From NCBI RefSeq assembly GCF_002261475.1, contig NZ_NEVN01000002.1, forward strand, positions 372,001 through 436,000: a DNA stretch of 64,000 nt, written 5' to 3'. The notes beneath the pieces were generated by a model. The model was not told the DNA's origin and searched no databases. It saw nothing but the letters and a program-made list of their open reading frames with translations. This document shows positions 7,601-48,766 of the stretch, in pieces (the first letter of the stretch is position 1; every line of letters starts with the position of its first letter). Source of the DNA: Bordetella genomosp. 5. GTDB taxonomy: Bacteria; Pseudomonadota; Gammaproteobacteria; Burkholderiales; Burkholderiaceae_B. The position numbers were made by a program, and so were the translations under genes.

Positions 7601-8613
7601 GCGCCACCTCGCACCGCGTCAGGACCGACCCGCCCGTTCAGGAACCCTCTCACCGGGCCATGGAGCAGGCCGCCGACTGGTATGCCCTGCTGCGTTCGGG
7701 CGAGGCCAGCGCACAGGATCATGCCGCGTGGCGGCTCTGGCTGGAGGGCGCCGCCGAGCATCAACAGGCGTGGCACTACGTCGAACGGATCGGCATGCGC
7801 TTCGCCCCGCTGCAGGCCAGCGCAGACCGCGATGCCGCCGTCGCGGCCTACCGCCGCGCCTCGGCCGGCGGCGGACGCACGCGACGCCAGGTGGTCCTGG
7901 GACTGTTCGGCGCGATCGGCGCCGGATGGCTCGGCTGGGCAAGCTGGCGCCATACCCCCCTGCCCGCGCTCGCGGCGGGGTGGGGCGCCGATCACCGTGC
8001 AGGCATCGGCGAGACGCGCCAGATCTCGCTGCCGGACGGCACGCGGGTCTGGTTGCGCGCGCTCAGCGCCTTCAACGTCGACTACGGCGCATCGCTGCGC
8101 AGGCTGGAACTGGTCGAGGGCGAAATGCTGATCGACACGGCGCCCGATGCCGCCCGGCCGTTTGTCGTCGATACCGGCGCGGGGCGGCTGCAGGCGCTCG
8201 GAACGCGCTTCACCGTGCGGCAGGAGCATGACGCCGTGCTGGTCGCCGTGTTCGATGGGGCGGTGAGGGTGGCGCCGTCGCGAGGCGGCGCCACGGGTGT
8301 GGTGTCGGCGGGCGAACAAGCCTATTTCGGCGAAGACGGCCTGCGGCCGCGGGTCGCGGCCAACCCCGGGCACGAGGCCTGGACACGCGGCGTGCTGGTG
8401 GCCGACGGCCTCACGTTGGGTGAGGTGGTGGGCGAACTTCGCCGCTACCACCTGGGTCACCTCGGCCTTGCGCCCGAGATCGCGCATCTGCGCGTGTTCG
8501 GCAGCTTCCCGATCGACGACGTGCCGCGTGCGCTGGCCATGCTGGCCTCCGTCATGCCGATCCGGGTGCGCCAGCCGCTGGCCTTCTGGATCAGCGTCGA
8601 CGCGCGCGCATAG
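7597..8613 (+). CDS. FecR-family anti-sigma regulator
   Basis: This 338-residue protein relays occupancy of the outer-membrane receptor to the ECF sigma factor. It has the N-terminal cytoplasmic FecR_N/DUF4880 region (AADWYALLRSGEASAQDHAAW), a single membrane span near residues 95-115 preceded by a twin-arginine-like RTRRQVVLGLFG, and a periplasmic FecR domain containing RQISLPDGTRVWLRALSAFNV and LVEGEMLIDTA. The GTG start overlaps the sigma-factor stop codon, indicating translational coupling. The Tat-like motif fits known Tat dependence of some FecR proteins; that link is inference. Confidence 0.92.
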   Translation: MSATSHRVRTDPPVQEPSHRAMEQAADWYALLRSGEASAQDHAAWRLWLEGAAEHQQAWHYVERIGMRFAPLQASADRDAAVAAYRRASAGGGRTRRQVVLGLFGAIGAGWLGWASWRHTPLPALAAGWGADHRAGIGETRQISLPDGTRVWLRALSAFNVDYGASLRRLELVEGEMLIDTAPDAARPFVVDTGAGRLQALGTRFTVRQEHDAVLVAVFDGAVRVAPSRGGATGVVSAGEQAYFGEDGLRPRVAANPGHEAWTRGVLVADGLTLGEVVGELRRYHLGHLGLAPEIAHLRVFGSFPIDDVPRALAMLASVMPIRVRQPLAFWISVDARA

Positions 8614-8769
8614 CCGCGCGGCCTGTCGTTACAAATTCGGGTTCCGCATTTTCATGCCTCGTTCGATGAGGGAGGTAGAGAGCCAGTCATGCTCGCGCCG
8701 TGAGTTCCGCGGCGCCGGCGCGGCCAGGCTCGCACAGACCCATACATCGATTGAGAGCCCAGGTTCATC

Positions 8770-11226
8770 ATGCCCGTTCGTTTTCCTCGCTCCGCGTCCG
8801 CGATTCGACGCTCCCCCGCTGCGCGCGCATCCACTGCTGGTTTCGGCCGTACCCGTGCCTTGAGCCTCGCGCTGGCTTTGGCCGGTACCGCGCTGTGGGC
8901 CGCGCCCGCCGCCGCGCAGTCCGGCGCGGGCCAGGCCGAGGTGCAACGGCAATTCAACGTGCCGGCCGGCCCGCTGAATCAGGTGCTGGCACGGCTCGCG
9001 AACGAAACCGGCATTCTGCTGATCGCCACGCCTGAGCTGGTGGCGGGCCGGCAAAGTGCCGGCGTCCAGGGCAGCTTCACGCGGCAGGCGGCCCTGTCGC
9101 GGGCGCTGGCCGGCACCGGCCTGCGTGCCTCGCAGGATGCGCCGAATCAATATCGCCTGAGCCCCGTGCCTGCCGGTTCCGCGACCGAGCTCGAGACCGT
9201 GACGGTCACCGGCACCGCGACCACGGGCCTGTCGCCCGTCTACGCCGGCGGTCAGGTCGCCACGGGTGGCGCCCTCGGCCTGCTGGGCAATCGCGACGAC
9301 ATGGACACGCCGTTCAGCGTGACGCAGTACACCTCCAAGCTGATCGAAGATCAGCAGGCGCAGAACATCGGCGACGTGCTGGTCAACGATCCCTCGGTGC
9401 GCAATACCTACTCGCGCGGCGCCGGCCGCGACGAGTTCAACATCCGTGGCTTCACGCTCTACAACTACGACGTGTCGTTCAACGGCCTGTACGGCGTGTC
9501 GCCGCGCAACTCGAGCTCGCTGATCGGGGTGGAACGCGTGGAAGTGCTGCGCGGTCCGAACGCGCTGCTCAACGGCATGTCGCCCTACGGCTCGGTGGGC
9601 GGCTCGATCAACCTCGTGCCCAAACGTGCGGGCGCCGAGCCGCTCAATCGCTACACGCTCTCGTACATCAGCGACAGCCAGTTGGGCCTGCACGCCGACC
9701 TCGCGCGCCGCTACGGCGACGCGCAGGAGTTCGGCGTGCGCCTGAACGTGGCGGGCAGCGGCGGCGATCTGGCCATGGACGGTGCCAACGAAGATCTGGG
9801 CGCCGTCGCCCTCGGCCTGGATTTCAAGGGCGATCGCTTCCGCATCGAGGGCGACATCAACTATCAGAATCGCGTCACCGACGCGCGCAGCGGGCTGCTG
9901 TTCCCTCCTGCGGCCGGTACCGACATCGGCCGCGCACCGGATGCGCGCCGCAACTTGTTCCCGTCGTGGACGTACTGGAAGACGAAGGAATGGTCGGGCG
10001 CGGTGCGTGCCGAGTACGACGTGGCCTCGGACTGGACGGTGTACGGCGCGCTCGGCGCGCGCAAGCATGATTTCGAAAGCATGCAGACCTCGTGGCTGAT
10101 GCAGGATGGCAACGGCAGCATCGCGTCCATCCCGGCGCGCCTGGACGAGTCGCTCATCAGCAAGACGGGCGAGATCGGCGTGCGCGGCCTGTTCCACACC
10201 GGCCCGATCAAGCACCAGCCCGCGCTGAGCGCGAGCTTCATGGACATCGATTATTCGTCGGCCCGCGTCCGTTCGAGCATCGTCACGTCCAACATCTACC
10301 ACCCCGCCGATCTGGCCAAGCCCAACATCGCGCGGCCGGGCGATCTGCCGCGCACGAGCGACACGCGCCTCTACAGCGTGGCCGCGGCCGACACGATGTC
10401 GTTCATGGATGACCGCGTGCAGTTCATCGCGGGCGTGCGCAATCAGCGCGTGCAGTCGACCAACTTCAGCGCGACCACGGGCGACGCCACCTCCAACTAC
10501 GGCAAGTCGAAGCTCTCGCCGGCCTTTGCCCTGACGGTGCGCCCGGTGCGTCAGCTGTCGCTCTACACCAACTACATCCAGGGCCTGAGCCAGGGCGCCA
10601 CCGCGCCGGCCGGCACGGCGAACGCCGGCGAGACGTTCGCGCCGGAAGTGGCCAAGCAGTTCGAGGTGGGCGCGAAGTACGACTTCGGTGATTTCACCAC
10701 CACGCTCAGCGCGTTCCAGATCGAGCGCCCCAGCGGCTTCGTCGATCCCGGCTCCAACCGTTACGTCGTCAACGGTGAGCAGCGCAATCGCGGCATCGAG
10801 CTGCTGGGCGAGGGCGAACTCAGCCGCAGCGTGCGCGTGCTGGGTGGCGTGGCCTACACCGACGCCCGCCTCACGCGCACCGTCGGCGGGCTGAACGATG
10901 GCAATCGCGCGCCTGCCGTGCCGCGCTATCAGTTCAATGCCGCCGTCGAGTGGGACACGCCGTTCGCGCAGGGCCTGACGCTCACGGCGCGCATGCTGCG
11001 CACCACCGATCAATACGTGGACGTCGGCAACACGCAGACCATCCCGGGCTGGACCCGCTTCGACGTGGGTGCGCGCTACGCGTTCAAGGCCGGCGGCACG
11101 CCGATGGTCATGCGCGCGACGGTCGAGAACGTGTTCAACAAGAACTACTGGCAATCCGCCGCACGCGAGGGCCTGACCGTGGGCGCGCCGCTGACCGTGC
11201 TGCTGTCGCTGAGCGCGGAATTCTGA
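8770..11226 (+). CDS. TonB-dependent siderophore receptor with signalling (STN) domain
   Basis: The 818-residue outer-membrane receptor has an arginine-rich signal peptide ending near residue 50 (AAPAAAQ). A secretin/TonB short N-terminal signalling domain follows (about 60-130, FNVPAGPLNQVLARLANETGI), then a TonB box-like ETVTVTG, a plug domain (TPFSVTQYTSKLIEDQQAQN) and a 22-strand barrel ending in the usual terminal phenylalanine (SLSAEF). The STN domain is what contacts FecR, so the three genes form one cell-surface signalling circuit. Overall resemblance is to ferrioxamine/ferrichrome-type receptors (FoxA, FhuA, FpvA class); the ligand is not assignable. Confidence 0.94.
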   Translation: MPVRFPRSASAIRRSPAARASTAGFGRTRALSLALALAGTALWAAPAAAQSGAGQAEVQRQFNVPAGPLNQVLARLANETGILLIATPELVAGRQSAGVQGSFTRQAALSRALAGTGLRASQDAPNQYRLSPVPAGSATELETVTVTGTATTGLSPVYAGGQVATGGALGLLGNRDDMDTPFSVTQYTSKLIEDQQAQNIGDVLVNDPSVRNTYSRGAGRDEFNIRGFTLYNYDVSFNGLYGVSPRNSSSLIGVERVEVLRGPNALLNGMSPYGSVGGSINLVPKRAGAEPLNRYTLSYISDSQLGLHADLARRYGDAQEFGVRLNVAGSGGDLAMDGANEDLGAVALGLDFKGDRFRIEGDINYQNRVTDARSGLLFPPAAGTDIGRAPDARRNLFPSWTYWKTKEWSGAVRAEYDVASDWTVYGALGARKHDFESMQTSWLMQDGNGSIASIPARLDESLISKTGEIGVRGLFHTGPIKHQPALSASFMDIDYSSARVRSSIVTSNIYHPADLAKPNIARPGDLPRTSDTRLYSVAAADTMSFMDDRVQFIAGVRNQRVQSTNFSATTGDATSNYGKSKLSPAFALTVRPVRQLSLYTNYIQGLSQGATAPAGTANAGETFAPEVAKQFEVGAKYDFGDFTTTLSAFQIERPSGFVDPGSNRYVVNGEQRNRGIELLGEGELSRSVRVLGGVAYTDARLTRTVGGLNDGNRAPAVPRYQFNAAVEWDTPFAQGLTLTARMLRTTDQYVDVGNTQTIPGWTRFDVGARYAFKAGGTPMVMRATVENVFNKNYWQSAAREGLTVGAPLTVLLSLSAEF

Positions 11227-35143: not shown

Positions 35144-35228
35144 GCCGACGTGGTGAAATTGGTAGACACGCTATCTTGAGGGGGTAGTGGCGAAAGCTGT
35201 GCGAGTTCGAGTCTCGCCGTCGGCACCA
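35144..35228 (+). tRNA. tRNA-Leu (anticodon GAG), island insertion target
   Basis: An 85-nt class II tRNA: acceptor GCCGACG/CGTCGGC, A discriminator and encoded CCA; T-arm GCGAG TTCGAGT CTCGC. The anticodon stem-loop GCTATCTTGAGGGGGTAG gives GAG, reading CUC/CUU. Its 3' end doubles as the attachment site of the island that follows, and the tRNA itself is intact. Confidence 0.95.
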
Positions 35229-35234
35229 AGAATT
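35204..35234 (+). repeat. attL: 3' end of tRNA-Leu(GAG)
   Basis: The 31-base segment starting AGTTCGAGTCTCGCC and ending CACCAAGAATT spans the T-arm, acceptor and CCA of the tRNA. It is repeated at 51733-51762 with one substitution and one missing base, and both copies are followed by similar terminators. Confidence 0.85.
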
Positions 35235-35265
35235 TGTCCAAGGTCGTCCCTGGACGTGTAAAGAA

Positions 35266-35298
35266 CCCGCATCTCTCCTATGAGGATGCGGGTTTTTT
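35266..35298 (+). terminator. Rho-independent terminator after tRNA-Leu(GAG)
   Basis: Stem CCCGCATC / GATGCGGG with an internal CTCTC...GAG region and a following TTTTTT. It closely resembles the terminator downstream of attR (51790-51818), as expected if one copy came with the element and the other is ancestral. Confidence 0.85.
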
Positions 35299-35338
35299 GT
35301 TGCCTGGCGTCCCCGTTTGTCCATCAGCATCCATTGCG

Positions 35339-35365
35339 TTTGAGTAGGGCTTTGAGTATGTTTTT
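35339..35365 (+). repeat. Integrase arm-like repeats, left end
   Basis: TTTGAGTAGGG is followed by TTTGAGTATGTTTTT (35351-35365). The same 15-mer plus a GAGTAGG copy recurs just inside attR at 51679-51704. Repeats of this kind close to the integrase gene and att sites are probable arm-type binding sites of the integrase or its excision factor. Confidence 0.7.
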
Positions 35366-35393
35366 GGCTACATACTTAAAACGGGCCCTATTT

Positions 35394-36653
35394 ATGCCTA
35401 GTCTGGCAAAAGGATTGACCGATCTGGCGGTCAAAAATGCGAAACGCAAAAACAAGCGCTACACCCTAGCAGACGGGGGAGGCCTACATCTCGAGGTGCT
35501 TCCGACGGGCAGAAAATCCTGGTTTTCGCGGTACAGACTGCCAGATGGCAAGCAGCGCACTGTCGTCCTGGGTTTATATCCAGTCATGAGTCTCGCTGAA
35601 GCTCGTCTGAAGACGGAAGAAGTTCATTACGCTAGCAGGACGGGCGGGTCAATTGTCGGGGCGAGAGCCGAGGCAAAGATGCATGTTCAAGCTCTGACTA
35701 TGGAGCAGGACCGGATTCAGCAGGCGGCCGAGGAGTCTAAGCGCTATTCGTTCGCCCGACTGTCCGAGGCTTGGCTAGCATTCCGTAAGAACAGTTGGGC
35801 TCCTGAGAGCTATCGAAAGGCCCAATACGTAGTTCGGAAATTGCTTCAGCCCGCCATCGGCGAGCGAGACATGCGCACGCTGCGTAGTCCTGATGTGACC
35901 GACACGCTGCGAAGCATTGCGGCGAATACTCCAAGCTTGGCCAAGAAAGCCCAGCAGTACCTAAACGGCGTCATTGAGTATTGCATCCACGAGGGTGTCC
36001 GCGGGGATGATCAGGTGCTCAGGCTGAAAGGCATTCTACCTAGTCACCGGGGTGGGCATGTGCCGGCCGTGACTCGACAGCAGGAAGTTGGCCAACTGAT
36101 GCGGACGATCCAAGCCTACGAAGGTATTGTTGTCCGTTCAGCGTTGCTGCTCGCGGCCTGGACCGCCTTACGTCCCGGCGTTGTCGCGAGCGCCAAATGG
36201 TCAGAAATAAATCTGCAAACAGCGGAGTGGCATATTTCGGGCATGAACGCCGATGGATCTCGGCGTATGAAGACGGGGAATGACCACCTCGTCAGTCTGC
36301 CGACGCAGGCCATCGCAATGCTGACGGACATGCAGCGGTTCTCAGGTGGGGATATGTACGTTTTTCCTGCCGTGGGTAAGCTTAAGAATCCACATTTGCA
36401 CCGGGATGCGCTTTCCCGCGCGCTGCGCTTGATGGGGTTTGCAGGTGAGCACAGTCCCCATGGGTTTCGCGCAATGCTCCGCACCATAGCGCGCGAGCGG
36501 CTTAAGATCGATTTCGATGTGCTGGAAGCGCAGCTTGCGCACGCCAAACGGGACCAAATCCAGGCGGCCTATGACCGAACAGGGTTTGTGGATGAGCGTC
36601 GTGAGGCAATGCAGAAGTGGGCGGATTACTTGGATGTGCAGGCTGCCGGGTAA
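35394..36653 (+). CDS. P4-type tyrosine integrase
   Basis: The 419-residue site-specific recombinase carries the N-terminal DUF4102/arm-binding domain (LTDLAVKNAKRKNKRYTLADGGGLHLEVLPTG) and the catalytic domain with the first arginine in AWTALRPGVVASAKWSEI, the HGFRAMLRT box (HxxR), LAHAKRD and the tyrosine nucleophile in AAYDRT. It should integrate the element into tRNA-Leu(GAG). The frame is open to 35280, but the ATG at 35394 (MPSLAKGL) begins the family alignment and leaves the arm-like repeats outside the coding region. Confidence 0.94.
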   Translation: MPSLAKGLTDLAVKNAKRKNKRYTLADGGGLHLEVLPTGRKSWFSRYRLPDGKQRTVVLGLYPVMSLAEARLKTEEVHYASRTGGSIVGARAEAKMHVQALTMEQDRIQQAAEESKRYSFARLSEAWLAFRKNSWAPESYRKAQYVVRKLLQPAIGERDMRTLRSPDVTDTLRSIAANTPSLAKKAQQYLNGVIEYCIHEGVRGDDQVLRLKGILPSHRGGHVPAVTRQQEVGQLMRTIQAYEGIVVRSALLLAAWTALRPGVVASAKWSEINLQTAEWHISGMNADGSRRMKTGNDHLVSLPTQAIAMLTDMQRFSGGDMYVFPAVGKLKNPHLHRDALSRALRLMGFAGEHSPHGFRAMLRTIARERLKIDFDVLEAQLAHAKRDQIQAAYDRTGFVDERREAMQKWADYLDVQAAG

Positions 36654-37341: not shown

Positions 37342-39648
37342 ATGAGTAGTGAGATCAATATCCGACGGCATCCCGACTTTCACGAGGCGCGGGAAGTGTG
37401 CCAAGCGTTGTTCGAAGATTCGTACGAATTCACGATCAAACTGATCAGATTGGAGTCACAAGGGTCTGTGGGTCAGGTGACGTATTCGCACGGAAGGCTG
37501 GCGGATCAAGTCAGGCAGTTCCCGAAGTGGAGGGCAGAGCAGTTGCAACCCTTCATGATGGTGGGGACGAGTGATGGCCAAGGTGTGGGATCCAGTAATG
37601 TGCTGGAAACGTGGGCAATCGCCGTCGACTTGGATCGCGACGTCGATATGTCCCAATGGGAGCAGGCGGCCTTTCGCCCTACGATCGCGATCAACACGTC
37701 TGACAACCGGCAGCACATGCTGTGGGTCCTCAAAGACTCGATCGACCGCGATACTCACCGGCAAGCCGCCCGTGCTCTGGCCTATCGACTCGACGGCGAT
37801 ATGTGCTTCGCTCACCAAGCCCAAGCAATACGGCTGCCTGGTTTCGTAAACGCGAAGCATGGGAACGAGGTCAGACTTTCAATGCTGAATTCGGGTCGCA
37901 CATACGACTACGCCAGACTGGCTGCTGCTTTTGATTTTGATCTGGTCAGGGCCACCGTACAGGCAACTGTTCCGTTCATAAGCAACACGCTCGCGATCAA
38001 GGTTAGGTCCAGCGACGAAACGAAAAAAAGGCTGGAGGACTTAAAGGACTCGCTGCGCCACATTTCATCGGATAGCTACGACGTGTGGTTCAAAGTCTTG
38101 GCGGCATTGCGACGAGCCGGCCCCGATGGGGAGAGCGTTGCGCGCGAGTGGTCGAAGAGTTCAAAGAAGTTCGATGAAAGTGCGTTCAGCAGGAAATGGA
38201 ATGACGTTGAGAAGGTAACTGGGATTAGCCCAGGCTCCATCTTCTTAATGGCCGCGCGTAATGGATGGCGCAATCCCGGGCATGACTCTCCCACGATCAA
38301 CATGCGACAACCAATCACCGAGCGAACTCTCGGCCGAATGCTGGCTCCTGTTATGGATAAGGAGTTCGCAGTGGCACGCTTGGGGCGAGGAGATAAGCAA
38401 ACGTTGCAAGCGCTGAAGTGGGACGGACACAAATACGCTGAGGTCGACCAGTTCGCATTCCGTCAGTGCGTGGAAGACTATTGCAAGCGACTATCCGTTG
38501 GAGATGATGAGGATGCTAGGCGAGCTCTTTCGGCTGCGATCGCGAAGCATACCGGTGACGTCCGGGCGTTAGATTCTTTGGGACGAAGCACGCTCGAATT
38601 CCTGCTTTCAAGGAGTGACTCTCTGCATGCCACGAAGTATCCCTACTTTCCTGTCGCCAATGGGATTTTGAACCTCCTGAGTGGTCAGCTTCTTCCTTCC
38701 CATTTGCGAGCAGTATCTCTGCGCCATAGTGCGGTAGTGTTCGATCCAAGTGCTGGAGCCCCTCGCTTTATACGCTTTCTTGAGGAGATATTTGAAGGTG
38801 ATCACGAGATCATCAGATTTCTATTGCGGCTCGTGGGCTGCATGCTTTTGGGGAAGCCAGTAGACCATGCATTCGTGATCTTTCATGGTCCACAAGGGAG
38901 AAATGGAAAATCGGTACTTGTAGAGGTGCTTGCCGCGATATTCGGTGACTTCGCAAGCAACGTCGGCGTAGCAACGATCATGGTCAAGAGCACCCTGACT
39001 GATGGTCCCACGTCGGCTCTGGCTCGACTGGAAGGCCGAAGGTTGGTGATCATCAATGAACCGAATGGGAAACACCAGTTAGACGCGGGCCTAGTCAAAC
39101 AATTGACGGGAGGTGATCGTATTACGGCTAGGCCTCTTTACGGCGCAGAGGTGGAGTTTCTGCCGGAGTTCGTTCCTATCATGGTAACCAACTTCATTCC
39201 CAAGATTCATGCTGCGGATGAAGCACTCTGGGCACGGATCAAGATCATCCGATTCATGCGGACCTTCTCGCCAGATGAGATTGATCTTGGGCTGAAGGAC
39301 AAGTTGCTGTCTGAACTCCCCGGCATTTTGAACATGTTCTTGGCTGGTGCGGCGGACTATCTTGAAGGAGGGTTGCGGCCTCCCTGCAAGGTTAGTTCGG
39401 CAGGCCAGGAGCAACGCAAGCTGGCGGATGGATTTGAGGCTTGGTTGGACGAACGTGCAATGCGTGGAGATTATGAGTGCCAGTTCAAGCCGCTTTATGA
39501 CGATTACGTCACATGGGCGAAGTTGAATTCCGACTTTGATCGCTTAAGTCAGAAGGAGTTTAAGGCCAAATTGGAGGGGCAATTCCGTTCTCGGAAGCAC
39601 CGCAACCACAAAATTATCTCTGGGATCACGTTGAACGACGCCGTTTAG
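37342..39648 (+). CDS. P4-type primase/helicase (RepB-like primase + SF3 helicase)
   Basis: The 768-residue replication protein has an archaeo-eukaryotic-type (RepB-like) primase domain at the N-terminus, with the acidic VDLDRD at about 95-100 and the DNRQHMLWVL histidine block at 121-130. A PriCT-like segment follows (about 243-300, SDSYDVWFKVLAALRRAG), then a D5-type superfamily 3 helicase with Walker A GPQGRNGKS at 516-524 and Walker B LVIINE. This arrangement initiates replication of P4-like elements. Canonical P4 alpha has a zinc-finger toprim primase instead, so this is a primase variant. It lies alone, followed by a small gene. Confidence 0.9.
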   Translation: MSSEINIRRHPDFHEAREVCQALFEDSYEFTIKLIRLESQGSVGQVTYSHGRLADQVRQFPKWRAEQLQPFMMVGTSDGQGVGSSNVLETWAIAVDLDRDVDMSQWEQAAFRPTIAINTSDNRQHMLWVLKDSIDRDTHRQAARALAYRLDGDMCFAHQAQAIRLPGFVNAKHGNEVRLSMLNSGRTYDYARLAAAFDFDLVRATVQATVPFISNTLAIKVRSSDETKKRLEDLKDSLRHISSDSYDVWFKVLAALRRAGPDGESVAREWSKSSKKFDESAFSRKWNDVEKVTGISPGSIFLMAARNGWRNPGHDSPTINMRQPITERTLGRMLAPVMDKEFAVARLGRGDKQTLQALKWDGHKYAEVDQFAFRQCVEDYCKRLSVGDDEDARRALSAAIAKHTGDVRALDSLGRSTLEFLLSRSDSLHATKYPYFPVANGILNLLSGQLLPSHLRAVSLRHSAVVFDPSAGAPRFIRFLEEIFEGDHEIIRFLLRLVGCMLLGKPVDHAFVIFHGPQGRNGKSVLVEVLAAIFGDFASNVGVATIMVKSTLTDGPTSALARLEGRRLVIINEPNGKHQLDAGLVKQLTGGDRITARPLYGAEVEFLPEFVPIMVTNFIPKIHAADEALWARIKIIRFMRTFSPDEIDLGLKDKLLSELPGILNMFLAGAADYLEGGLRPPCKVSSAGQEQRKLADGFEAWLDERAMRGDYECQFKPLYDDYVTWAKLNSDFDRLSQKEFKAKLEGQFRSRKHRNHKIISGITLNDAV

Positions 39649-40235: not shown

Positions 40236-40820
40236 ATGCAATTCCATCTTCTCCCCGGATTATTGGTCTTTCTTGGCTCATACTTGCCACTCGCGATTAT
40301 TCTCGCGATGCAAGATATTCCGGCTGAATGGTGGTCGCGCCCTCTTTGTTCGTTGGAAAATCTTAGCGCAGGCAAGTGCGACTTCATTCCATTTGAGAAT
40401 CCCGTTCTATCCCTGGCATTCCTCACAATTGCTGCGGTGGCCACAATTCTGGCCAAAGTGTCCCTCCAGAAGATTAAATACCCGTTCGTGGTCGAGGTAA
40501 AGCGCCTTAAGGCGACGCCAAACGAGATCATCAACTACACCTTTCCGTATGTGGTCTCCTTCATGGGCATTGCATATGGTGATCCCCAAAAACTGATCGG
40601 CTTTGGTGTCTTTCTACTTTGGATGTTTGCAATATCGCTAAAGTCAGGGCAGATTCTTATGAATCCGCTCTTGTTAATCTTTGGCTGGAAGTTGTATGAG
40701 GCAACGATCGTTATCAATAATGTGGAAAGAGATGTCCGCGTCTTGAAACACGGCGCTCTCGGTCTCGGAACCCACATGGCGCAGACCGTGCAGGATTTCT
40801 ACATACTCAGGGAAAAGTAG
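40236..40820 (+). CDS. kwaA: Kiwa defence membrane protein KwaA
   Basis: The 194-residue protein has about four hydrophobic membrane segments (residues 3-25, 57-77, 100-122, 125-160) and no enzymatic motif. Its size, topology and immediate linkage to a DUF4868 protein identify it as KwaA of the two-gene Kiwa anti-phage system, in which KwaA forms a membrane sensor that captures infecting phage and recruits KwaB. The stop codon abuts the kwaB ATG (TAGATG). Start choice is uncertain because no strong ribosome-binding sequence is seen. Confidence 0.78.
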   Translation: MQFHLLPGLLVFLGSYLPLAIILAMQDIPAEWWSRPLCSLENLSAGKCDFIPFENPVLSLAFLTIAAVATILAKVSLQKIKYPFVVEVKRLKATPNEIINYTFPYVVSFMGIAYGDPQKLIGFGVFLLWMFAISLKSGQILMNPLLLIFGWKLYEATIVINNVERDVRVLKHGALGLGTHMAQTVQDFYILREK

Positions 40821-41735
40821 ATGCAGCAGAATTTCGCTTCTCTTCGAGATTTTGACTTCGCTAATAGCGAAATTCATCTTTGGGTCTTCAAGCGAAGCAC
40901 GACCCTGCAGCGTTTCTCTGCCTTCTATGTACAAACCGACGAAGAGCTTGATTCCATACTGCTCGGCGTGGTGCAGGGCGAGGTGGACCGTATCACCGAA
41001 TGGGCGAATTACACATATCTTTCGGAGACAAACGAGAATAGCTGTCTCGCTGCTCCTATTGCTGGCAGTGATTTTGAGTTTCTGAAGGAGCGGGTGGATC
41101 GCCCCGAGCCCGAATGCCGAGTGCGTTCAATAAAGGACCTGAAAAATGCGGACGGATACGTCGTCAAATTTGTGCGCAATAATCAGACGGTATACGCGGT
41201 AAAGAAAACGGCAAAAAACTGGAAGGCCTCTTATCTAAAAACTCACATCAATATTATTTTTCGGGATGGTGAGTTGTCGGCTGCTGAGGATAACGGCTTT
41301 GCAATCGAGAAATACTTCGACTTCTATGCCTTTGATCAGACGCTTTTCATCGCCAGAAAACGTGCATTTGAATCTGCCATGGAGCATCGTGCTTCCTACG
41401 CGCAGGCCTTTGTCGATCTTCGACAAAACGCCGGCTTCTCGGCACTATTTACCGACATGCAACCGATCGTTGACTACGTGGGGACAAACTCGATCCAGTT
41501 GAGACGCATGGCAAGGGTTGAAGAGCGTTCCTTGTTTAATAGGCAAGGATTTCTTGCCGCCGTCCAGACAGTAAGCGCTAGGCGGGGATGGGGGCTCAAC
41601 TTCCATCCCGTGACAAATCAGCTTATCCCGTGTGATCAAACGATCAAGGCGATCATACAAGTTCTCTTGGATCATCGGCTACTGAGCGAGGTGACCGATC
41701 TGATCTATGACGTCCCGGACGCAACGCAACTGTGA
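40821..41735 (+). CDS. kwaB: Kiwa defence protein KwaB (DUF4868)
   Basis: The 304-residue product matches DUF4868: TVYAVKKTAKNW, the IEKYFDFYAFDQTLFIARKRAFE segment and the C-terminal LRRMARVEE...NQLIPCDQTIKAIIQVLLDHRLLSE block. KwaB is the cytoplasmic DNA-binding effector of Kiwa that acts with KwaA against phage replication and transcription. It starts at the base after the kwaA stop codon, so the two genes are translationally coupled. Its base composition is AT-rich compared with the chromosome. Confidence 0.8.
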   Translation: MQQNFASLRDFDFANSEIHLWVFKRSTTLQRFSAFYVQTDEELDSILLGVVQGEVDRITEWANYTYLSETNENSCLAAPIAGSDFEFLKERVDRPEPECRVRSIKDLKNADGYVVKFVRNNQTVYAVKKTAKNWKASYLKTHINIIFRDGELSAAEDNGFAIEKYFDFYAFDQTLFIARKRAFESAMEHRASYAQAFVDLRQNAGFSALFTDMQPIVDYVGTNSIQLRRMARVEERSLFNRQGFLAAVQTVSARRGWGLNFHPVTNQLIPCDQTIKAIIQVLLDHRLLSEVTDLIYDVPDATQL

Positions 41736-41772: not shown

Positions 41773-42057
41773 CTACACTGCCTGTCCGGAGAACCGCGTG
41801 TCGATAAAGCCTTTCACATTTATTGAAACGTAGAAGCGTTCTTTGAAAACGCTTACGTCCACTTTTTCATGCGTGCTGATACAGTGATCCAACGCCGCAT
41901 TAAGCTTTTCCTCAATATCCAGAACGGTGGGGTAAAGCTGGTCGGGAGTAAGCTGGAATCTGTATGGTTTTTGGAGTTCGGTCTCGATTACAACGCCAAC
42001 CCACTCGCCGGAAGGGGCAATTTCAACCTTGTAAGACTTTACTTGATGCTTCGCCAT
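41773..42057 (-). CDS. Small hypothetical protein (94 aa)
   Basis: A 94-residue soluble protein beginning MAKHQVKSYKVEIAPSGEWVGVVIETELQKPYRFQLTPDQL, apparently of mixed alpha/beta type. It is convergent with kwaB (37-base gap) and lies downstream of the ABC-3C operon in the same direction. I do not recognise the family; a regulatory or antitoxin-like role would be a guess. Confidence 0.5.
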   Translation of the reverse strand: MAKHQVKSYKVEIAPSGEWVGVVIETELQKPYRFQLTPDQLYPTVLDIEEKLNAALDHCISTHEKVDVSVFKERFYVSINVKGFIDTRFSGQAV

Positions 42058-42373: not shown

Positions 42374-44341
42374 CTAGGAGCGTGCCTTGACCCATGTCTC
42401 CGGCACAAGACCTTTGCCACGCCACTCTTCGACAAGGTGAACGTTGTTAAGCCCTCCCCAAACTTCCTCGTTCGCATGATCTAGCACGATGATTTGGAGG
42501 CGCCCCGTTGTCTTCTTAATGATGCCGTCAAATAGCGCGAACACCTTTCTGACAGCGACAATATCTTCGTTTTGCCAAGTTGGATCGAGTTCCTCTTCGG
42601 TATTTTTTCGGGCGCTGCGCGCCGGAAAGTAAACTTGACTCGGCTGGTCATAGATTAGCAATGCGGGAACTGGGTGCTGAGGCGAGCGCAAGAAGTACCC
42701 TTGCAACGCAAGACTGAGGGCAATGTGATATGCCAACCAGTTCGCGCCGCTGCCAATTTCCCAGAGGAAGTCGTCTCGCGTTTCTCGGATGACTCTCACG
42801 GTCAGATCTTGGATAACAAGTCGGATTGGTGCGTCGGGCCACTCACCGTCAAGCTGCGGAATTAGCCTGCCGGAGATGGCCTGGATGGTATCGAGCGCGT
42901 TCTCCAGCTTCCGGCCGATTTCATGCTCGGACACCAGCTTGGCCAGCCTTTCGATCTCGGTCTTCAGCGTCGAAATTTCTTGGTTCAACTCTGAGGAAGT
43001 GTCAGCCATGTCGTAGAGTCTGAGAGCCTCTTGCAACCGGCCCAGGAACCGGGAAATCTCCTCGCTGCGGCTGGCGACCTTCCTCGCGTCAGCAGACTGC
43101 CCCTCCAAGGTATGAATCTCCGCCCGCACGGCAGCTAGGTCGCTAAGCACGGTGTCGACCAATTCGCGCTGGCGCAGCGTCTCCCTTCCGAGCGATTCCG
43201 CAACTTCTGGATATGACCGCAGCCGCAACTCAATGCCATCCAGCGTTTGGCACAACTGATCGATTCGCGCACGACCGGCTTCACTTGGTTCAAGCACCGC
43301 AGAGGGATGCTCTGACGCAAGGTCTCTAATCCATGTAGACAAGTTCAAACGGTCGCGCTGAATGTGCAGACCATCACGATACTCATCACTGCTTTCGTCA
43401 AGACGGCGCAGTTCATGAAGACGCTGACGGGACTGACTAAGGGTCATCGTGAGTTTCGTCTCCACGGCGCGCAGCTCGGTGACTCTGCTCATAATGACGT
43501 CCATCGCCGCTAACGACGTCGTTGCGGCTTGAACGTCTCCGCTCAGAGCTTGTCGGAGTAGATCGACAGTCGTAGGCCAATCATCAGGCACCATTGTATG
43601 TGCCGGCAAAAGTCCATACTCAATTGCCAGGCGGGCCCAAGCAAACCCTTCCCGCTGCCACGCGGCGCCCGTGTCCTGCCGTGCTTTCAATTCCCCCTCC
43701 TTGCGGCGGAGAACCCGAGACAGCCGATCGAGTTCATGTCGCGCGTGTAGAAGTTCGGGGCTTATCGCGCCGAGAACATACGGGAATATCGTCTTTAGCT
43801 TCTCACGATGTTCCGTAGTGTCCGCCTTGAAGAACAGCACATCGGGATTTGCAACGATGTTTTGAGGTTGGAACAGGAAGGCCATTAAGTCGCGGAAGCT
43901 CACGCGCGACTTGAATCGCTCATCAGTCCCAGGATCAAACTGCAGGCTAGACAAGCCCGCGAGCCTGTTCAAGACAGCCTTCACATAGTCGACGTTCTGA
44001 TTCTTCTCCGTGATGACGGAAGGGATCTCAACGGCAGGGCCCTCTAGGAGCAGCATTTCGCCAGATGCCTTGTGGCCACCCGGCTCCCGTCGAGCGAGCA
44101 GCTTTTGCCCTTCAAGGGTATCGACCACCACGCCAAACCAGGAACACGTCTCTCTGATAACGCCTACGGGAATGGCACACTTATCTGATCCCAGGCAATA
44201 GTCAATAATCGGAATGACCGACGATTTCCCAGTCTTCGATGCGCCGCTAATGACATTGACCTTGCCAGTTTTGAATTCGACTACCCTCGGTTCACCGCCG
44301 ACACGCGGCCAAAGGATGACTTTTAAAAGTTGGAAGTGCAT
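42374..44341 (-). CDS. SMC-like ATPase of an ABC-3C system (DUF3732)
   Basis: The 655-residue protein has an N-terminal Walker A GASKTGKS (33-40) and the typical continuation SSVIPIIDYCLGSDKCAIPVGVI, a long central coiled-coil region (about 215-480) and a C-terminal Walker B-like LLIYDQPSQVYFP with a LDHANEE segment. This is DUF3732, the ATPase of many ABC-three-component (ABC-3C) conflict systems. Its start overlaps the stop codon of the middle-component gene (TAATG), so it is the third gene of a coupled operon. It probably senses invading DNA or repair intermediates and licenses the effector. Confidence 0.82.
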   Translation of the reverse strand: MHFQLLKVILWPRVGGEPRVVEFKTGKVNVISGASKTGKSSVIPIIDYCLGSDKCAIPVGVIRETCSWFGVVVDTLEGQKLLARREPGGHKASGEMLLLEGPAVEIPSVITEKNQNVDYVKAVLNRLAGLSSLQFDPGTDERFKSRVSFRDLMAFLFQPQNIVANPDVLFFKADTTEHREKLKTIFPYVLGAISPELLHARHELDRLSRVLRRKEGELKARQDTGAAWQREGFAWARLAIEYGLLPAHTMVPDDWPTTVDLLRQALSGDVQAATTSLAAMDVIMSRVTELRAVETKLTMTLSQSRQRLHELRRLDESSDEYRDGLHIQRDRLNLSTWIRDLASEHPSAVLEPSEAGRARIDQLCQTLDGIELRLRSYPEVAESLGRETLRQRELVDTVLSDLAAVRAEIHTLEGQSADARKVASRSEEISRFLGRLQEALRLYDMADTSSELNQEISTLKTEIERLAKLVSEHEIGRKLENALDTIQAISGRLIPQLDGEWPDAPIRLVIQDLTVRVIRETRDDFLWEIGSGANWLAYHIALSLALQGYFLRSPQHPVPALLIYDQPSQVYFPARSARKNTEEELDPTWQNEDIVAVRKVFALFDGIIKKTTGRLQIIVLDHANEEVWGGLNNVHLVEEWRGKGLVPETWVKARS

Positions 44342-44850
44342 TAGAAGTCTACTCTTAACGTGTGGGCCACCTGTTGATCCGTCAGGCCGGCGAACCAGTA
44401 GCCGATCTTTTCGCAGGCGGGTGCGATTCGCCGGATTCGTTCAGGAAGCGTCGGAGGCTGCACGTGATGGTGCGGGCTGAATGCCCGGACCGTCGCGGTA
44501 ATTGGCTCGATCCGAACGAGGAGCGACTGTTCGGCAACGATGAGCGATCCAAGCGTCAATTTTCGAAGAGCGATGGTGCGCCCGTGAACCGCCAACAAGT
44601 TCTCTCGCTGCTCGCCAAGCTTGCCGGCCAAGAGATGCAAACCAGAAGCTTTTTGCGTGCTCAACACCATGGCGAGGGTTGGCGCGTGAAGGATCATTGG
44701 TAAGAGCAGGAACACCAGAGGGAAGGTCACGGATTGTTCATTACGTTCCTGAAAACCTAGGCAGAATCGCCAGATAGCGTATGCGCCGAGAGCTTCGTTT
44801 TGGACGATCGCTGCTTCGCTGAGGCGTACCGCATGGGCGCGGTTCATCAT
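44341..44850 (-). CDS. ABC-3C middle component
   Basis: The 169-residue protein has the middle-component pattern: an N-terminal NEALGAYAIWRFCLGFQE helix followed by the hydrophobic FPLVFLLLPMILHAPTLAMVL block, and a helical C-terminal half (RIRRIAPACEKIGYWFAGLTDQQVAHTL). In ABC-3C systems this component links the ATPase to the effector. It overlaps the effector stop by four bases (ATGA) and the ATPase start by one base. Family assignment rests on the pattern and the context. Confidence 0.75.
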   Translation of the reverse strand: MMNRAHAVRLSEAAIVQNEALGAYAIWRFCLGFQERNEQSVTFPLVFLLLPMILHAPTLAMVLSTQKASGLHLLAGKLGEQRENLLAVHGRTIALRKLTLGSLIVAEQSLLVRIEPITATVRAFSPHHHVQPPTLPERIRRIAPACEKIGYWFAGLTDQQVAHTLRVDF

Positions 44851-46022
44851 TTCTCGTCCCCCTCATTTAGAAGATTCAGGTGATCCGGATGCCACCCCAG
44901 TCTTCGTCTATCGGCCAAGTCGTTAAAGCTACCATGGGTGAAATGACCGGGCACTGCGCGGCCGTCCAGCGGGAGGTCCATAGCAGCACAGCGGCTGTAG
45001 ACGACCCGACCTTGTGCGTCCTCGGGTTTCTCTGCGTAAGTCTCTTGCACCTCGCTCAGCGTGGCGTCGTGCTTGCGTAGCAAAGTGTCTTCCCAGTCTT
45101 CAAAGGTGCCGTCGAAGACGAGGCCTTGGTCCGCCCATTTCACCTTGTCTCCGGACGTGCGCATCAGGTCACTGGCCGCTCGAAGCTGCTGCTCTTCGGA
45201 CGCCGCTATCAACTGCAGTTGTCGCGCGAAGACAGGGCGATTTGTTAGTAGCGCCTTCGTGACATCTTTAGATGGTGCCGGTGTAAAGGTTGGCAGATAG
45301 CCTGACATGTTGTTTTGTTGGACAAAGGCGTGGAAGTTCCTACGGAACTCCGCAACATTCACCACTGCCGGGGACTTTCTGCGAATGCACTTGTCGGCTG
45401 CCTCCTTGGCTTGGCCGATCGCCGAGGCGCAAATAACGTCTAGCGAAATCTCTGGGACCGTAGGTCTCAATAGGGTGCGAAGAGGCTCCAATGGGTCGGC
45501 ATCAGTCGCATAGATAGTGGTTTTTCCCACTACTGATAAACGCAGTGTGTCCGACGCGTCGAGGAACTTCTGAATGTGCGCTATGCACTTAGGTGGGATG
45601 GGCCGTTTATTAAGCTTGTCCTTGACTTGCTTGACCAGTGCTGCGATAGCTTTGGCGTCAAGCGCAGCATGCATTGACGCGCTCAGCTTGCCGAGCTTTG
45701 CCGGCGTCACATAGAGCTGGAAAGAGGTTTTCGGTCCAGACACTTTTTGTGTTTCGACCGCATCTAACCAATTGGCAACTGTCTTCCACAAATCATCGGA
45801 CCAGTCGGAAATCGGGTTGTGCGCTAGGGCGCTCTTGCACTGTTCCAACAGTAGCGTGCCGTCTGCGTAGTGGACGGCAACATCATCGAGGTACTCAAGT
45901 GACACGCTCGAGTCATGCGGGCTGCTCAGGAGGTGATAACACATCCTGACGGGCTGCAATGCAAAGCCGAGGTAAGGACCGGCGGCGGCGTGCTTTATTA
46001 CAAGGGGCGCCGTTTGAGTCAT
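44847..46022 (-). CDS. ABC-3C effector with REase-like nuclease domain
   Basis: The 391-residue first gene of the operon has an N-terminal segment SLEYLDDVAVHYADGTLLLEQCKSAL (about 41-65), with acidic residues at 46-47 and an E-Q-x-K at 60-63. This resembles the D...(E/Q)xK core of restriction-endonuclease-fold proteins such as the dsDNA nuclease (DUF4297/Cap4) group. The remainder is helical with a conserved-looking C-terminus (GRAVPGHFTHGSFNDLADRRRLGWHP), probably the ABC-3C C-terminal domain. The nuclease call is a short-motif inference; the effector position in the operon is strong support. Confidence 0.68.
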   Translation of the reverse strand: MTQTAPLVIKHAAAGPYLGFALQPVRMCYHLLSSPHDSSVSLEYLDDVAVHYADGTLLLEQCKSALAHNPISDWSDDLWKTVANWLDAVETQKVSGPKTSFQLYVTPAKLGKLSASMHAALDAKAIAALVKQVKDKLNKRPIPPKCIAHIQKFLDASDTLRLSVVGKTTIYATDADPLEPLRTLLRPTVPEISLDVICASAIGQAKEAADKCIRRKSPAVVNVAEFRRNFHAFVQQNNMSGYLPTFTPAPSKDVTKALLTNRPVFARQLQLIAASEEQQLRAASDLMRTSGDKVKWADQGLVFDGTFEDWEDTLLRKHDATLSEVQETYAEKPEDAQGRVVYSRCAAMDLPLDGRAVPGHFTHGSFNDLADRRRLGWHPDHLNLLNEGDEK

Positions 46023-46570
46023 TGGACCGGCCTAGTGATCGATCTCGATGACGAGCATAGGCTGTGAATAGCGTATTTCATGCCCTCTCCCTCTGCTTGG
46101 TGTGGCTAACTAAGAGGTAGCCGATTCACATCTAGTTACTATGTTAGCTGAGTTTGGAGACGATAGGTGTGAGGCGTCCTGGGCGATTCAACTAAGAATT
46201 TTTGGATTCCGTGGTGAGCTTCTATGGCCATTCACGGGAAAACCTGCGAATTTCGCGTGCATGAAACCAGTCTTTGTGTGGCTCGAGACCGAGTGCGAGG
46301 CGGAGCTACGACTTTTGCTGGCTGCCACTCGACCGAATATATGCGTTGCAACGTTTCTTTCTGTACGGCGGGTAGCGACGTCATCAGCTCGCAACGCTAG
46401 ACCGCGAATGAGCCGTTTGAGGGAGCTCAAGTTGCTCTGCTTTGTCCGCTTTCCTGTGTGGCCATACGGGCCTTAACTTGTCGTAGAGCGCAATTCGAGT
46501 GGTAATGTATTATCTATGACTTGGTGTTGCTGTTGGAAATTAAATATATCAAACTTGCTGAGGAGACGCT
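46023..46570. other. Long gap between divergent ABC-3C and PRTase/SLOG operons
   Basis: About 550 bases with the promoters of both operons. Small frames on either strand (46141-46476 plus, 46188-46430 minus) lack ribosome-binding sites or recognisable features and are not called. The plus-strand end is AT-rich (AAATTAAATATATCAAAC) and ends in AGGAGACGCTGTG, the ribosome-binding site and GTG start of the next gene. Confidence 0.45.
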
Positions 46571-47146
46571 GTGAACGTGACCTTGAAAGAAATCTACGGT
46601 CCCTGGGAGTCAGGCTGGGCACTGGATAAACATGTGCTATCCAGCACCTATCTTGGAGATAACGAGTGGGGACATCCTCAGTTCGATACGCAGCGTTCGC
46701 AAGTAGGGGAGGCTTCTTTCCAATTGAAGTATCGTTCAGACTGGAGCCAAGTCGCGCCGCTGGCCCAAGCGTTGGCCACACATCTTTTCCCGAAACTTGG
46801 CAATGTTGGTTTCATCGTTCCGATGCCTGCCTCGAAGGCCCGGCCGCGTCAGCCGGTAACAGAAGTTGCGCGCGTGCTGGGAGAGTTGGTACAAAGACCT
46901 GTGTTCGAATCACTCGTTAAGGCCCCTGGTGGCCCAGCACTGAAGGATCTGCCGACAAGGGAGGCGAAGCTCGAAGCACTCGCCGAACGCATCAGTGTGG
47001 TGGATGTCATTGCTGACGGGCGGTGGAACGTGCTTCTAGTGGACGACTTATACGACTCGGGCGCTTCGATGGAAGCGGCCTGCAATGCGCTACGTGGGTA
47101 CAGAAAAGTCAATAAAATATATGCTGCCGCCTTGACTTGGAAATAG
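46571..47146 (+). CDS. ComF-like phosphoribosyltransferase
   Basis: The 191-residue protein (GTG start, AGGAG upstream) has a type I phosphoribosyltransferase fold: the PRPP-binding loop LLVDDLYDSGAS at 155-166 is intact, with the preceding strand FIVPMPASKARPRQPV (82-96) and helix as in ComF-like proteins. The N-terminal 50 residues (LKEIYGPWESGWALDKHVLSS) are the kind of segment seen in predicted PRTases of defence islands. It lies five bases before a SLOG-like gene, so the two probably work together. Substrate and reaction direction are unknown. Confidence 0.75.
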   Translation: MNVTLKEIYGPWESGWALDKHVLSSTYLGDNEWGHPQFDTQRSQVGEASFQLKYRSDWSQVAPLAQALATHLFPKLGNVGFIVPMPASKARPRQPVTEVARVLGELVQRPVFESLVKAPGGPALKDLPTREAKLEALAERISVVDVIADGRWNVLLVDDLYDSGASMEAACNALRGYRKVNKIYAAALTWK

Positions 47147-47150
47147 ATTG

Positions 47151-47717
47151 ATGACAACCAAAGTTTTTATCGCGGGTTCGATGGGTATTAAAAACCTCGA
47201 TCCCGAGGTGCGAAAACGCATTGACAACATTATCGAGCAAGACTTCGAGGTCATCGTTGGCGATGCTGATGGCGCGGACACCTCCGTGCAATACTATTTG
47301 CTTGATCATGGAGGTGACCGCGCGACCGTTTTCTGTAGCGGGCAGACACCTCGCAACAACGTAGGGGGGTGGCCCGTGGAACAGGTCATGACTAAACATG
47401 CCGAAGGTTCTCGGGCATTCTTTACTGCTAAAGACCTGCGCATGGCTGAAGTGGCAGACTACGGTCTAATGATTTGGGACGCGAAGAGCACGGGTACTCT
47501 CAGCAATGTCATCGAATTGCTGTTTCGGAATAAGAAGGCGGTGGTATTCGTGAACAAAGCAAGGACTTTTTGCAATGTGGGTACAGTCGAGCAGTTGGAA
47601 GATCTGTTAAGTTTCATGTCCGAGCACGCCAAGAAGAAAGCTGACCAGAAAATTGGCCTTTTGAATCGGATTGAGTCGCTGAAGAGCGAAAAGGCTCAAA
47701 CACGAATGTTCGCGTAG
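47151..47717 (+). CDS. SLOG-superfamily nucleotide-binding protein (YspA/DprA-like)
   Basis: The 188-residue protein has a Rossmann-type SLOG fold: FIAGSMGIKNL at the N-terminus, the glycine-rich VIVGDADGADTSVQYYLLDHG (about 35-54) and a later DYGLMIWDAKSTGTLSNVIEL strand-loop (104-124). SLOG proteins bind or cleave nucleotides (DprA, LOG, YpsA and CBASS-type sensors). There is a charged, lysine-rich C-terminal helix. It follows the ComF-like PRTase gene by four bases (TTG between stop and ATG), so it is cotranscribed. No separate toxin is visible. Confidence 0.75.
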   Translation: MTTKVFIAGSMGIKNLDPEVRKRIDNIIEQDFEVIVGDADGADTSVQYYLLDHGGDRATVFCSGQTPRNNVGGWPVEQVMTKHAEGSRAFFTAKDLRMAEVADYGLMIWDAKSTGTLSNVIELLFRNKKAVVFVNKARTFCNVGTVEQLEDLLSFMSEHAKKKADQKIGLLNRIESLKSEKAQTRMFA

Positions 47718-47800: not shown

Positions 47801-48766
47801 TTACAGCAGAGAGGGCACTTTGCGCTCCGGCCGAATGTATCGCGCCAAGGTGGCCATCGAACGATGGCCTGTCTGTTGCTGAATTTGAAAGGACGGTAAG
47901 CCAGCCATTGCAGCCACGGTTACGTACCCTGCTCGCAGGCTGTGGCCGGCCACGAGACTTGCATTGCCACCAGCGCGTCGGTATGCCGCTTTGAGAATTA
48001 GCGCGACAGATTGTCCGGTAAGTGGTCGACTTCCCACGGTGTCGTGGCGAGTCACCCTTCGGAATACGTAACCGGAGTCTGTGTGGCTCGCTGCTTTCCA
48101 CTGATCTATTGCGGCAACGGGGCACCTGGGCCCTTTGGCGCGAGGGATAAAGACGGTTCGTCCTACCCCTTCCTGGTCTGTCTTGGAACGACGTAGCAAA
48201 ATCTCGATGCCTTCGTCTACTGCCGTGATGTCTTCATACCGAATGGCCACAAGTTCCGCGCGTCGGAACGCCCCCGCGAAGCCAATCAGTAGAAGTGCTC
48301 GGTCACGTGCGGCTCTCATCGGCTTCTGTTGGTCGACCAGGGCAAGCATTTCCAATAAATCATCTTTGACGATCGCCCGCACACGACGTTGGGTGATGTC
48401 CAAGGTTCTACGAATGCCTTGCATGGTCTGCCGCACGCTGACATGGACGGCGGGAGACGTCAGGTTTTGATCTTGATGGGCACGGTGGATGCCGATCAGT
48501 CTTCGCTCTATCGTCGCTACGGCCAAAGTTGCCGCGAGATTGGCCAGGTATGCGCAAAGTTGTTGTGGCGTCGCCGGCAGCTTTCCACCGTTCGCCAAAA
48601 AATGAGCGAGATCAGCCGCATATGCTTTCTTCGTCGCGGCCGATCGGGCAGCATCAATGTAATGCTCAGCCGTCATTGATGCGGCAGTACTCGCGGGAGC
48701 GTTTCGAGAAGGCTTGGACGCATTAGTCTTTGATGCCGTGGCGGCATTTCTGCTGGTGCTTTTCAT
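47801..48766 (-). CDS. Second tyrosine recombinase
   Basis: The 321-residue protein is a tyrosine recombinase distinct from the P4-type integrase: an Ala/Ser-rich N-terminus, a SAM-like core-binding domain (YAADLAHFLANGGKLPATPQQL) and a catalytic domain with AGAFRRAELVAIRYEDI (arginine), HSLRAGYVTVAA (HxxR) and TGHRSMATLARYIRP (histidine and tyrosine). All catalytic positions seem intact. It is transcribed towards the middle of the island; its start overlaps the upstream 158-residue gene by 44 bases. It may mark a nested element or a rearrangement enzyme. Confidence 0.88.
   Translation of the reverse strand: MKSTSRNAATASKTNASKPSRNAPASTAASMTAEHYIDAARSAATKKAYAADLAHFLANGGKLPATPQQLCAYLANLAATLAVATIERRLIGIHRAHQDQNLTSPAVHVSVRQTMQGIRRTLDITQRRVRAIVKDDLLEMLALVDQQKPMRAARDRALLLIGFAGAFRRAELVAIRYEDITAVDEGIEILLRRSKTDQEGVGRTVFIPRAKGPRCPVAAIDQWKAASHTDSGYVFRRVTRHDTVGSRPLTGQSVALILKAAYRRAGGNASLVAGHSLRAGYVTVAAMAGLPSFQIQQQTGHRSMATLARYIRPERKVPSLL

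Follow-up and report, generated by a model that had tools for sequence, protein, structure and literature searches.

The locus at positions 46571-47717 of a 64,000-nucleotide stretch of Bordetella genomosp. 5 (hereafter the window) raises the question of what a ComF-like phosphoribosyltransferase (PRTase) and a SLOG-fold protein do when they are encoded side by side in a mobile island. By analogy with described systems, the pair probably constitutes a two-gene toxin-antitoxin defence module acting by abortive infection. A first-pass annotation of the same DNA had proposed a defence system based on nucleotides, and its interpretation is partly supported: the defensive role is rated probable, and the biochemical cycle that it suggested found no support. 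The genes of the pair and the region preceding them are:

46571-47146, + strand: PRTase, candidate toxin (ComF-like, 191 aa, GTG start), with the phosphoribosyl pyrophosphate (PRPP) loop LLVDDLYDSGAS

47151-47717, + strand: SLOG-fold protein, candidate antitoxin (188 aa), with a SLOG core at about residues 1-150 plus a helical tail; evidence from AlphaFold 2 (AF2), Foldseek and hhalign

46555-46570, + strand: region upstream of the PRTase gene, with a Shine-Dalgarno-like stretch GAGGAG (46560-46565) before the GTG codon in the sequence

A conserved and mobile two-gene unit

The observation of a two-gene PRTase-SLOG unit is confirmed. The open reading frames (ORFs) 46571-47146 and 47151-47717 bear out the first description, a ComF-like PRTase with an intact PRPP loop four bases before a SLOG protein with a GDADGAD motif. 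The SLOG ORF may start from TTG (47148-47717) or from ATG (47151-47717, 188 aa), and the ATG is favoured because close relatives align from M-T-T; the gap between the genes is therefore 4 bases. The starts in relatives agree with GTG for the PRTase and ATG for SLOG. A simple scan of the + strand found no sigma-70-like promoter upstream of the PRTase gene. About 550 bases between the preceding ABC-3C operon and the PRTase start (46023-46570) contain no convincing gene, and no reverse transcriptase (RT) was found there.

The same ordered pair recurs among relatives whose identity to the window proteins is about 31-81%. The 32 pairs analysed, including that of the window, form 30 clusters at 90% identity, and in all ten pairs compared the nonsynonymous divergence (pN) of both genes is far below the synonymous one (pS), dS being saturated in several. 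The retention of the ordered pair across these clusters, together with pN well below pS, indicates that the association is more than chance. Both genes are present in 55 of 58 loci, a set containing several contigs twice, and in these 55 the PRTase always comes first and the match coordinates are 3-25 apart. The distance matrices of the two proteins in the 32 pairs are correlated (Mantel r 0.84, 0/10000 permutations).

SLOG is located downstream in 8/8 PRTase loci of the genome collection and is present in 21/21 viral contigs with PRTase. Conversely, PRTase was found in 22 of the 25 viral contigs with SLOG, the rest being L058, cut at the contig end, and the orphans L077 and L078. The plasmid listing covers 60 of the 61 PRTase records and part of the 98 SLOG records, many of them near copies; 59 of the 60 listed PRTase records also carry SLOG (57 plus two N. 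gonorrhoeae records). In the lone exception, C. braakii L044, the PRTase match comprises residues 1-149 only and is followed by an IS1 transposase, so the PRPP loop is missing at that place; this record has a second PRTase match place. In AP018832, AP018835 and CP074549 a whole SLOG accompanies a PRTase match broken into two separate places, and a few further matches also consist of two pieces. Not every plasmid pair counted is therefore intact.

Both genes are rare among genomes. In a class sample of 369 genomes, which includes that of the window, PRTase (E up to 1e-12) and SLOG (E up to 1e-3) were each detected in three genomes and both in two, the exceptions being L021, with SLOG only, and L023 and L024, PRTase loci of one genome; within the family, SLOG is present in 2/151 genomes, the window's own counted. 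In the phages collection SLOG had no match and PRTase matched only at E 0.03-0.8. Several proteobacterial groups carry the pair, on conjugative plasmids, prophages or islands, and a Listeria plasmid has it too; 38/61 plasmid records with PRTase were typed conjugative. The homologues thus co-occur and are sporadic and mobile, not housekeeping, which supports the first-pass annotation on this point.

The phosphoribosyltransferase

The AlphaFold model of the window PRTase is confident (predicted local distance difference test, pLDDT, 94.5), as is that of SLOG. The 191-aa protein comprises the PRTase alone, with no RecQ-like helicase. It matches Pfam Pribosyltran at E 0.001, under the gathering score, and comF TIGR00201 at E 0.0012, far under its cut-off. 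PADLOC returned PsyrT (1.6e-7) and ShosT (1.8e-7), the VIA-align list for the model is headed by ComF with ShosT next, and hhalign links the PRTase profile to PsyrT (98.1%, E 9.4e-14) and equally to ComF. Tested as a homologue of ShosT, the protein proved to be one. The eight N-terminal cysteines invariant in five ComF proteins are absent from its N terminus.

In the PRTase tree the window family forms a group (support 81/90, 76% of bootstraps) neighbouring the PsyrT PRTases, and a split supported at 89/84 separates both from ComF and ShosT. The midpoint root served for drawing only, and the placement of the very long ShosT branch is unsure.

The SLOG-fold protein

The window SLOG (AF2 model, pLDDT 94.6) has no Pfam match and belongs to the SLOG superfamily by its Rossmann-like SLOG fold with G-rich loops. 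The best Foldseek match in the PDB is ShosA (8zva, E 4.0e-5), and DprA was also matched. Comparison with the PsyrA set (hhalign 77.5%, E 1.9e-5; PRTase control 0.2%) suggests remote SLOG homology only, and a PDB sequence search with the SLOG profile gave nothing below E 0.68. In the GT loop of the family (K-S-x-G-T-x-x-N) residue N119 is invariant; the catalytic glutamate of LOG enzymes occupies that place (PGGxGTxxE).

No helix-turn-helix (HTH) domain was found in the window SLOG. Some relatives have C-terminal fusions to HTH_37 (L017, 1.8e-19; L018, 1.0e-19) or to PF21716, 'probable addiction module antidote protein' (L041, 6.4e-21; L042, 7.5e-23). These HTH fusions, the repeated occurrence of SLOG without PRTase and the near absence of PRTase without SLOG make SLOG look like an antitoxin. 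In L014, a locus from a genome of the window's family, a window-like SLOG domain (E 2.5e-9) is part of a 645-aa protein encoded directly downstream of a protein matching PsyrT positions 389-687 (1.8e-64). SLOG of the window kind therefore also partners a helicase-type PRTase toxin.

Other SLOG genes have different neighbours. Orphan genes in large viral contigs (L077:4965-5414 and L078:2080-2481, about 40% identity), with no PRTase found nearby, are possible phage-borne antitoxins. On the Mesorhizobium, Shinella and Aminobacter plasmids L101, L103 and L106, an orphan SLOG belongs to the shared order toprim, DUF2493, SLOG, DUF736, with a strawberry-notch gene upstream of this neighbourhood in L103 and L106. 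Two PRTase-less SLOG genes are located downstream of other proteins: in L021:118-2031 of a 432-aa protein that is HEPN-like by eye only, and in L105:2405-4540 of one annotated as HEPN, from which a small gene separates it; SLOG may partner other toxins at such loci.

Genomic context

The chromosomal pair occurs in 16/5426 complete genomes of E. coli, with both genes covered in 16/16 and the DNA resembling that of the window at about 67% over 260 bases. In both of the contexts read (L109, strain D2, pair at 8315-9456; L110) a P2-like prophage carries the pair, flanked by its phage portal and replication endonuclease genes. This position corresponds to the gpQ-gpA hotspot of Rousset et al., described as rich in anti-phage systems, where a DprA + PRTase system protects against T7 and lambda (PMC9122126).

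Among other relatives, the Brenneria pair (L009) has KwaB and a helicase that partially matches type IV restriction as neighbours, the Sinorhizobium pair (L017) has SIR2 and nucleotidyltransferase genes, and the Delftia pair (L002) has genes for a phage terminase and portal. In L108:6001-12077, from an E. coli plasmid, type II restriction and methyltransferase genes come after the pair, and recombinase genes flank the region. The neighbour scan covered 20 ORFs hand-picked from seven loci with no control set, and no defence enrichment is therefore claimed; its helicase and methyltransferase matches may be housekeeping, and L002 and L005 had no defence match among the ORFs scanned.

In the window, the pair is accompanied by:

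35144-36653, + strand: tRNA-Leu(gag) (35144-35228), then a tyrosine integrase; left edge of the stretch of low guanine-plus-cytosine (GC) content

37342-39648, + strand: P4-type primase/helicase of a mobile element (TIGR01613, 1.7e-56)

40236-40820, + strand: Kiwa KwaA (PADLOC, 7.3e-73)

40821-41735, + strand: Kiwa KwaB (PADLOC, 2.9e-121)

41773-42057, - strand: small ORF (94 aa) separating Kiwa from the ABC-3C operon

42374-46022, - strand: ABC-3C/Lamassu-type operon (LmuB-like ATPase, MC3, CTD7/LmuA-like; LmuB 4.8e-122, MC3 1.4e-26, CTD7 2.5e-14, LmuA 9.4e-42)

47801-48766, - strand: second tyrosine recombinase, directly downstream of the pair (Phage_integrase, 6.9e-14)

The GC content falls from 67-69% to about 49-60% on the island. 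No exact repeat of at least 15 bases links 35144-35289 to the downstream part of the window, and a matching right end was not found. The PADLOC matches and the tRNA-Leu/integrase island agree with the earlier view of a compact unit in a defence or mobile island beside ABC-3C and Kiwa.

In one lineage a retron-type RT gene ends 5 bases before the PRTase gene (L003:771-1703, L004:9060-9992, L005:9060-9992, L007:2109-3041). These RTs are 98-100% identical, and the arrangement thus represents one event. The RT of L004, the one compared, has RT_VI as its best PADLOC match (6.5e-76) and is preceded by an HTH_3 gene. Rfam revealed no retron RNA in L003 or L004, and PtaRNA1 and traJ-II in L004. The viral contigs contain no relatives of this RT. 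The single RT query matched L003, L004, L005 and L007 only, not the window, and unlike RTs could be missed by it; a retron in the window was rejected, no RT being found.

Proposed function and alternatives

A review citing Pu et al. 2025 (PMC12593503) presents ShosT as a phosphoribosyltransferase and pyrophosphatase whose interference with purine metabolism results in DNA duplications, filamentation and death; ShosA counteracts ShosT, and T7 Gp0.7 is a trigger. For RqlH, mutants of the PRPP site had no marked influence on growth, SOS response or filamentation and affected viable counts modestly (PMC4670107). By analogy, the window PRTase would act as a toxin that uses PRPP and alters the purine or nucleotide pool, which would damage DNA replication and leave the infected cell arrested or killed. 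SLOG would be the antitoxin, binding the PRTase and keeping it off until infection disturbs the complex. This scheme builds on homology, fold, the PRPP loop, strict gene order, coupling, mobility and the hotspot location of the E. coli relatives; toxicity, neutralisation, direct binding, substrate, trigger and abortive infection or cell death are predicted for the window pair. The toxin that the first-pass annotation looked for next to the pair is likely the PRTase itself.

Several results weigh against this scheme. No PADLOC model of ShosA or PsyrA matches the window SLOG at E up to 1, and its alignment with one ShosA is weak (hhalign 11.6%). VIA-align scores MoCo-carrier, YpsA and DprA chains alongside ShosA, so an antitoxin cannot be recognised from the SLOG fold alone. 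For the PRTase model the best Foldseek matches are PurR and ComF, ShosT being absent from the best 50, and ComF scores as well as PsyrT against the PRTase profile (hhalign 98.3%, E 1.6e-14). SLOG is missing from the loci of two distant PRTase relatives, both of one genome: in L023:457-2052 the PRTase, with a PRPP loop, makes up the C-terminal part of a protein of 531 aa, and L024 is a fragment at a contig end. Ten loci of distant SLOG relatives (L021, L077, L078, L101-L107) have no PRTase in the stretch read, and their existence indicates that SLOG also has another role. The RqlHI study (PMC4670107) reports that the PRTase domain of RqlH expressed alone was not toxic.

The two proteins could instead form a sensor-effector pair, as Rousset et al. 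suggested for DprA + PRTase (PMC9122126): SLOG would sense a nucleotide or DNA signal and switch on the PRTase, and would be required for its activity. Nucleotide or DNA binding is known for SLOG and DprA folds, LOGs solved with AMP appear in the VIA list, and the PRTase is accompanied by SLOG almost everywhere. The HTH and addiction-antidote fusions, however, fit an autorepressing antitoxin, the only listed plasmid PRTase without SLOG (L044) is shortened, and RqlI, the DprA-like partner in RqlHI, binds the PRTase protein RqlH, restraining and countering it (PMC4670107). This explanation is unlikely. A similarly low probability applies to a plasmid or prophage addiction module with no role in phage defence. 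The conjugative typing of 38/61 plasmid records and the pairs near replication and partition genes in Roseomonas (L019) and Klebsiella (L016) would be consistent with it, but the anti-phage hotspot in the two E. coli contexts and the Kiwa, Lamassu, restriction and SIR2 neighbours argue against it.

Coupled nucleotide enzymes, with the PRTase making and SLOG cleaving the N-glycosidic bond of a signal nucleotide read by an outside effector, are less probable still. Both folds include such enzymes, and LOG proteins are among the fold matches. Product names, however, reveal no recurrent third effector gene in nine annotated plasmid loci (L015-L019, L041-L043, L108; genome loci were sampled only), and the invariant N119 occupies the place of the LOG glutamate. 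The related base-exchange cycle of the first-pass annotation was rejected, as no evidence for it was found and SLOG looks like an antitoxin. A housekeeping salvage or ComFC-like competence operon is highly improbable and was rejected, since SLOG is rare and patchy (3/369 and 2/151 genomes), the pair is found on plasmids and prophages, and the PRTase lacks the Cys-rich N terminus.

The toxin-antitoxin scheme invites a broader, rather doubtful extension: the bare SLOG may be the minimal common core of PRTase antitoxins, a nucleotide sensor freeing the PRTase when a phage shifts the nucleotide pool and not a DprA binding single-stranded DNA; orphan SLOGs (L077, L078, rhizobial plasmid backbones) may be stolen antitoxins disarming such systems; and the cassette may be pluggable behind a retron RT (L003/L004/L005/L007).

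Among anti-phage effectors, PRTase toxins are still poorly understood, and the pair of 191 and 188 aa is a very small version whose complex should be easy to solve. The copy in the P2 hotspot makes it directly testable in E. coli. Public records label the pair 'ComF family protein' and 'hypothetical protein', and defence surveys probably miss it because PADLOC matches weakly and on one gene.

Comparison with known systems

The first-pass annotation knew no named system of this composition, yet ShosTA and PsyrTA/RqlHI both combine a PRTase with a DprA-like partner, in the gene order of the window pair. Membership of the whole window system in ShosTA or PsyrTA was rejected, as the partner does not belong to their sequence families. 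The ShosT family search matched 195/200 genomes, and 12 loci from it were retained: L029, which is a true ShosTA locus, and L030-L040, which look ComF-like by eye. PsyrT searched at 1e-60 matched 175/274 genomes; most listed matches cover the helicase half only, and L046-L049, L051 and L052 were used.

Like the window pair, ShosTA consists of two genes, with the PRTase upstream of a partner of SLOG/DprA fold, an order seen directly in L029, and the DprA + PRTase system comes from the same E. coli P2 hotspot as a pair of the window family (PMC9122126). The window SLOG, however, is a bare 188-aa protein, whereas ShosA is longer (PADLOC models of 303 and 327 positions) and is matched by fold alone, and the PRTases are only distantly related (PADLOC E 1.8e-7). 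PsyrTA/RqlHI likewise has the PRTase upstream of a DprA/SLOG-type partner, with PRTase domains in neighbouring tree groups, and RqlI shares a C-terminal HTH with some SLOGs of the window family (PMC4670107); the window pair differs in having no RecQ-like helicase, no SLOG of DprA length and no HTH. From ComFC it differs in the missing Cys-rich N terminus (CxxC pairs), the SLOG partner and the mobility.

Type III-A retrons (RT + PRTase + winged helix; PMC12548924) combine a PRTase effector with a DNA-binding partner, where the window pair has SLOG. The lineage with a retron-type RT directly before the pair (L003, L004, L005, L007) resembles them, but its RT is nearest RT_VI, not III-A, and no RT was found in the window. 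The likeness to type II toxin-antitoxin systems lies in genomic signs only.

The open-access literature searched gave no description of the bare pair, subscription papers and preprints being mostly outside its coverage. A figure legend of DefensePredictor (PMC13092281) names a PRTase among validated systems; the window-type pair, or a similar one, may already have been tested in that screen (2026). Overall, a PRTase toxin with a DprA/SLOG antitoxin is a kind of system already known, and the window family is a separate variant of it, with the PRTase alone, a bare SLOG and a partner outside the ShosA and PsyrA sequence models.
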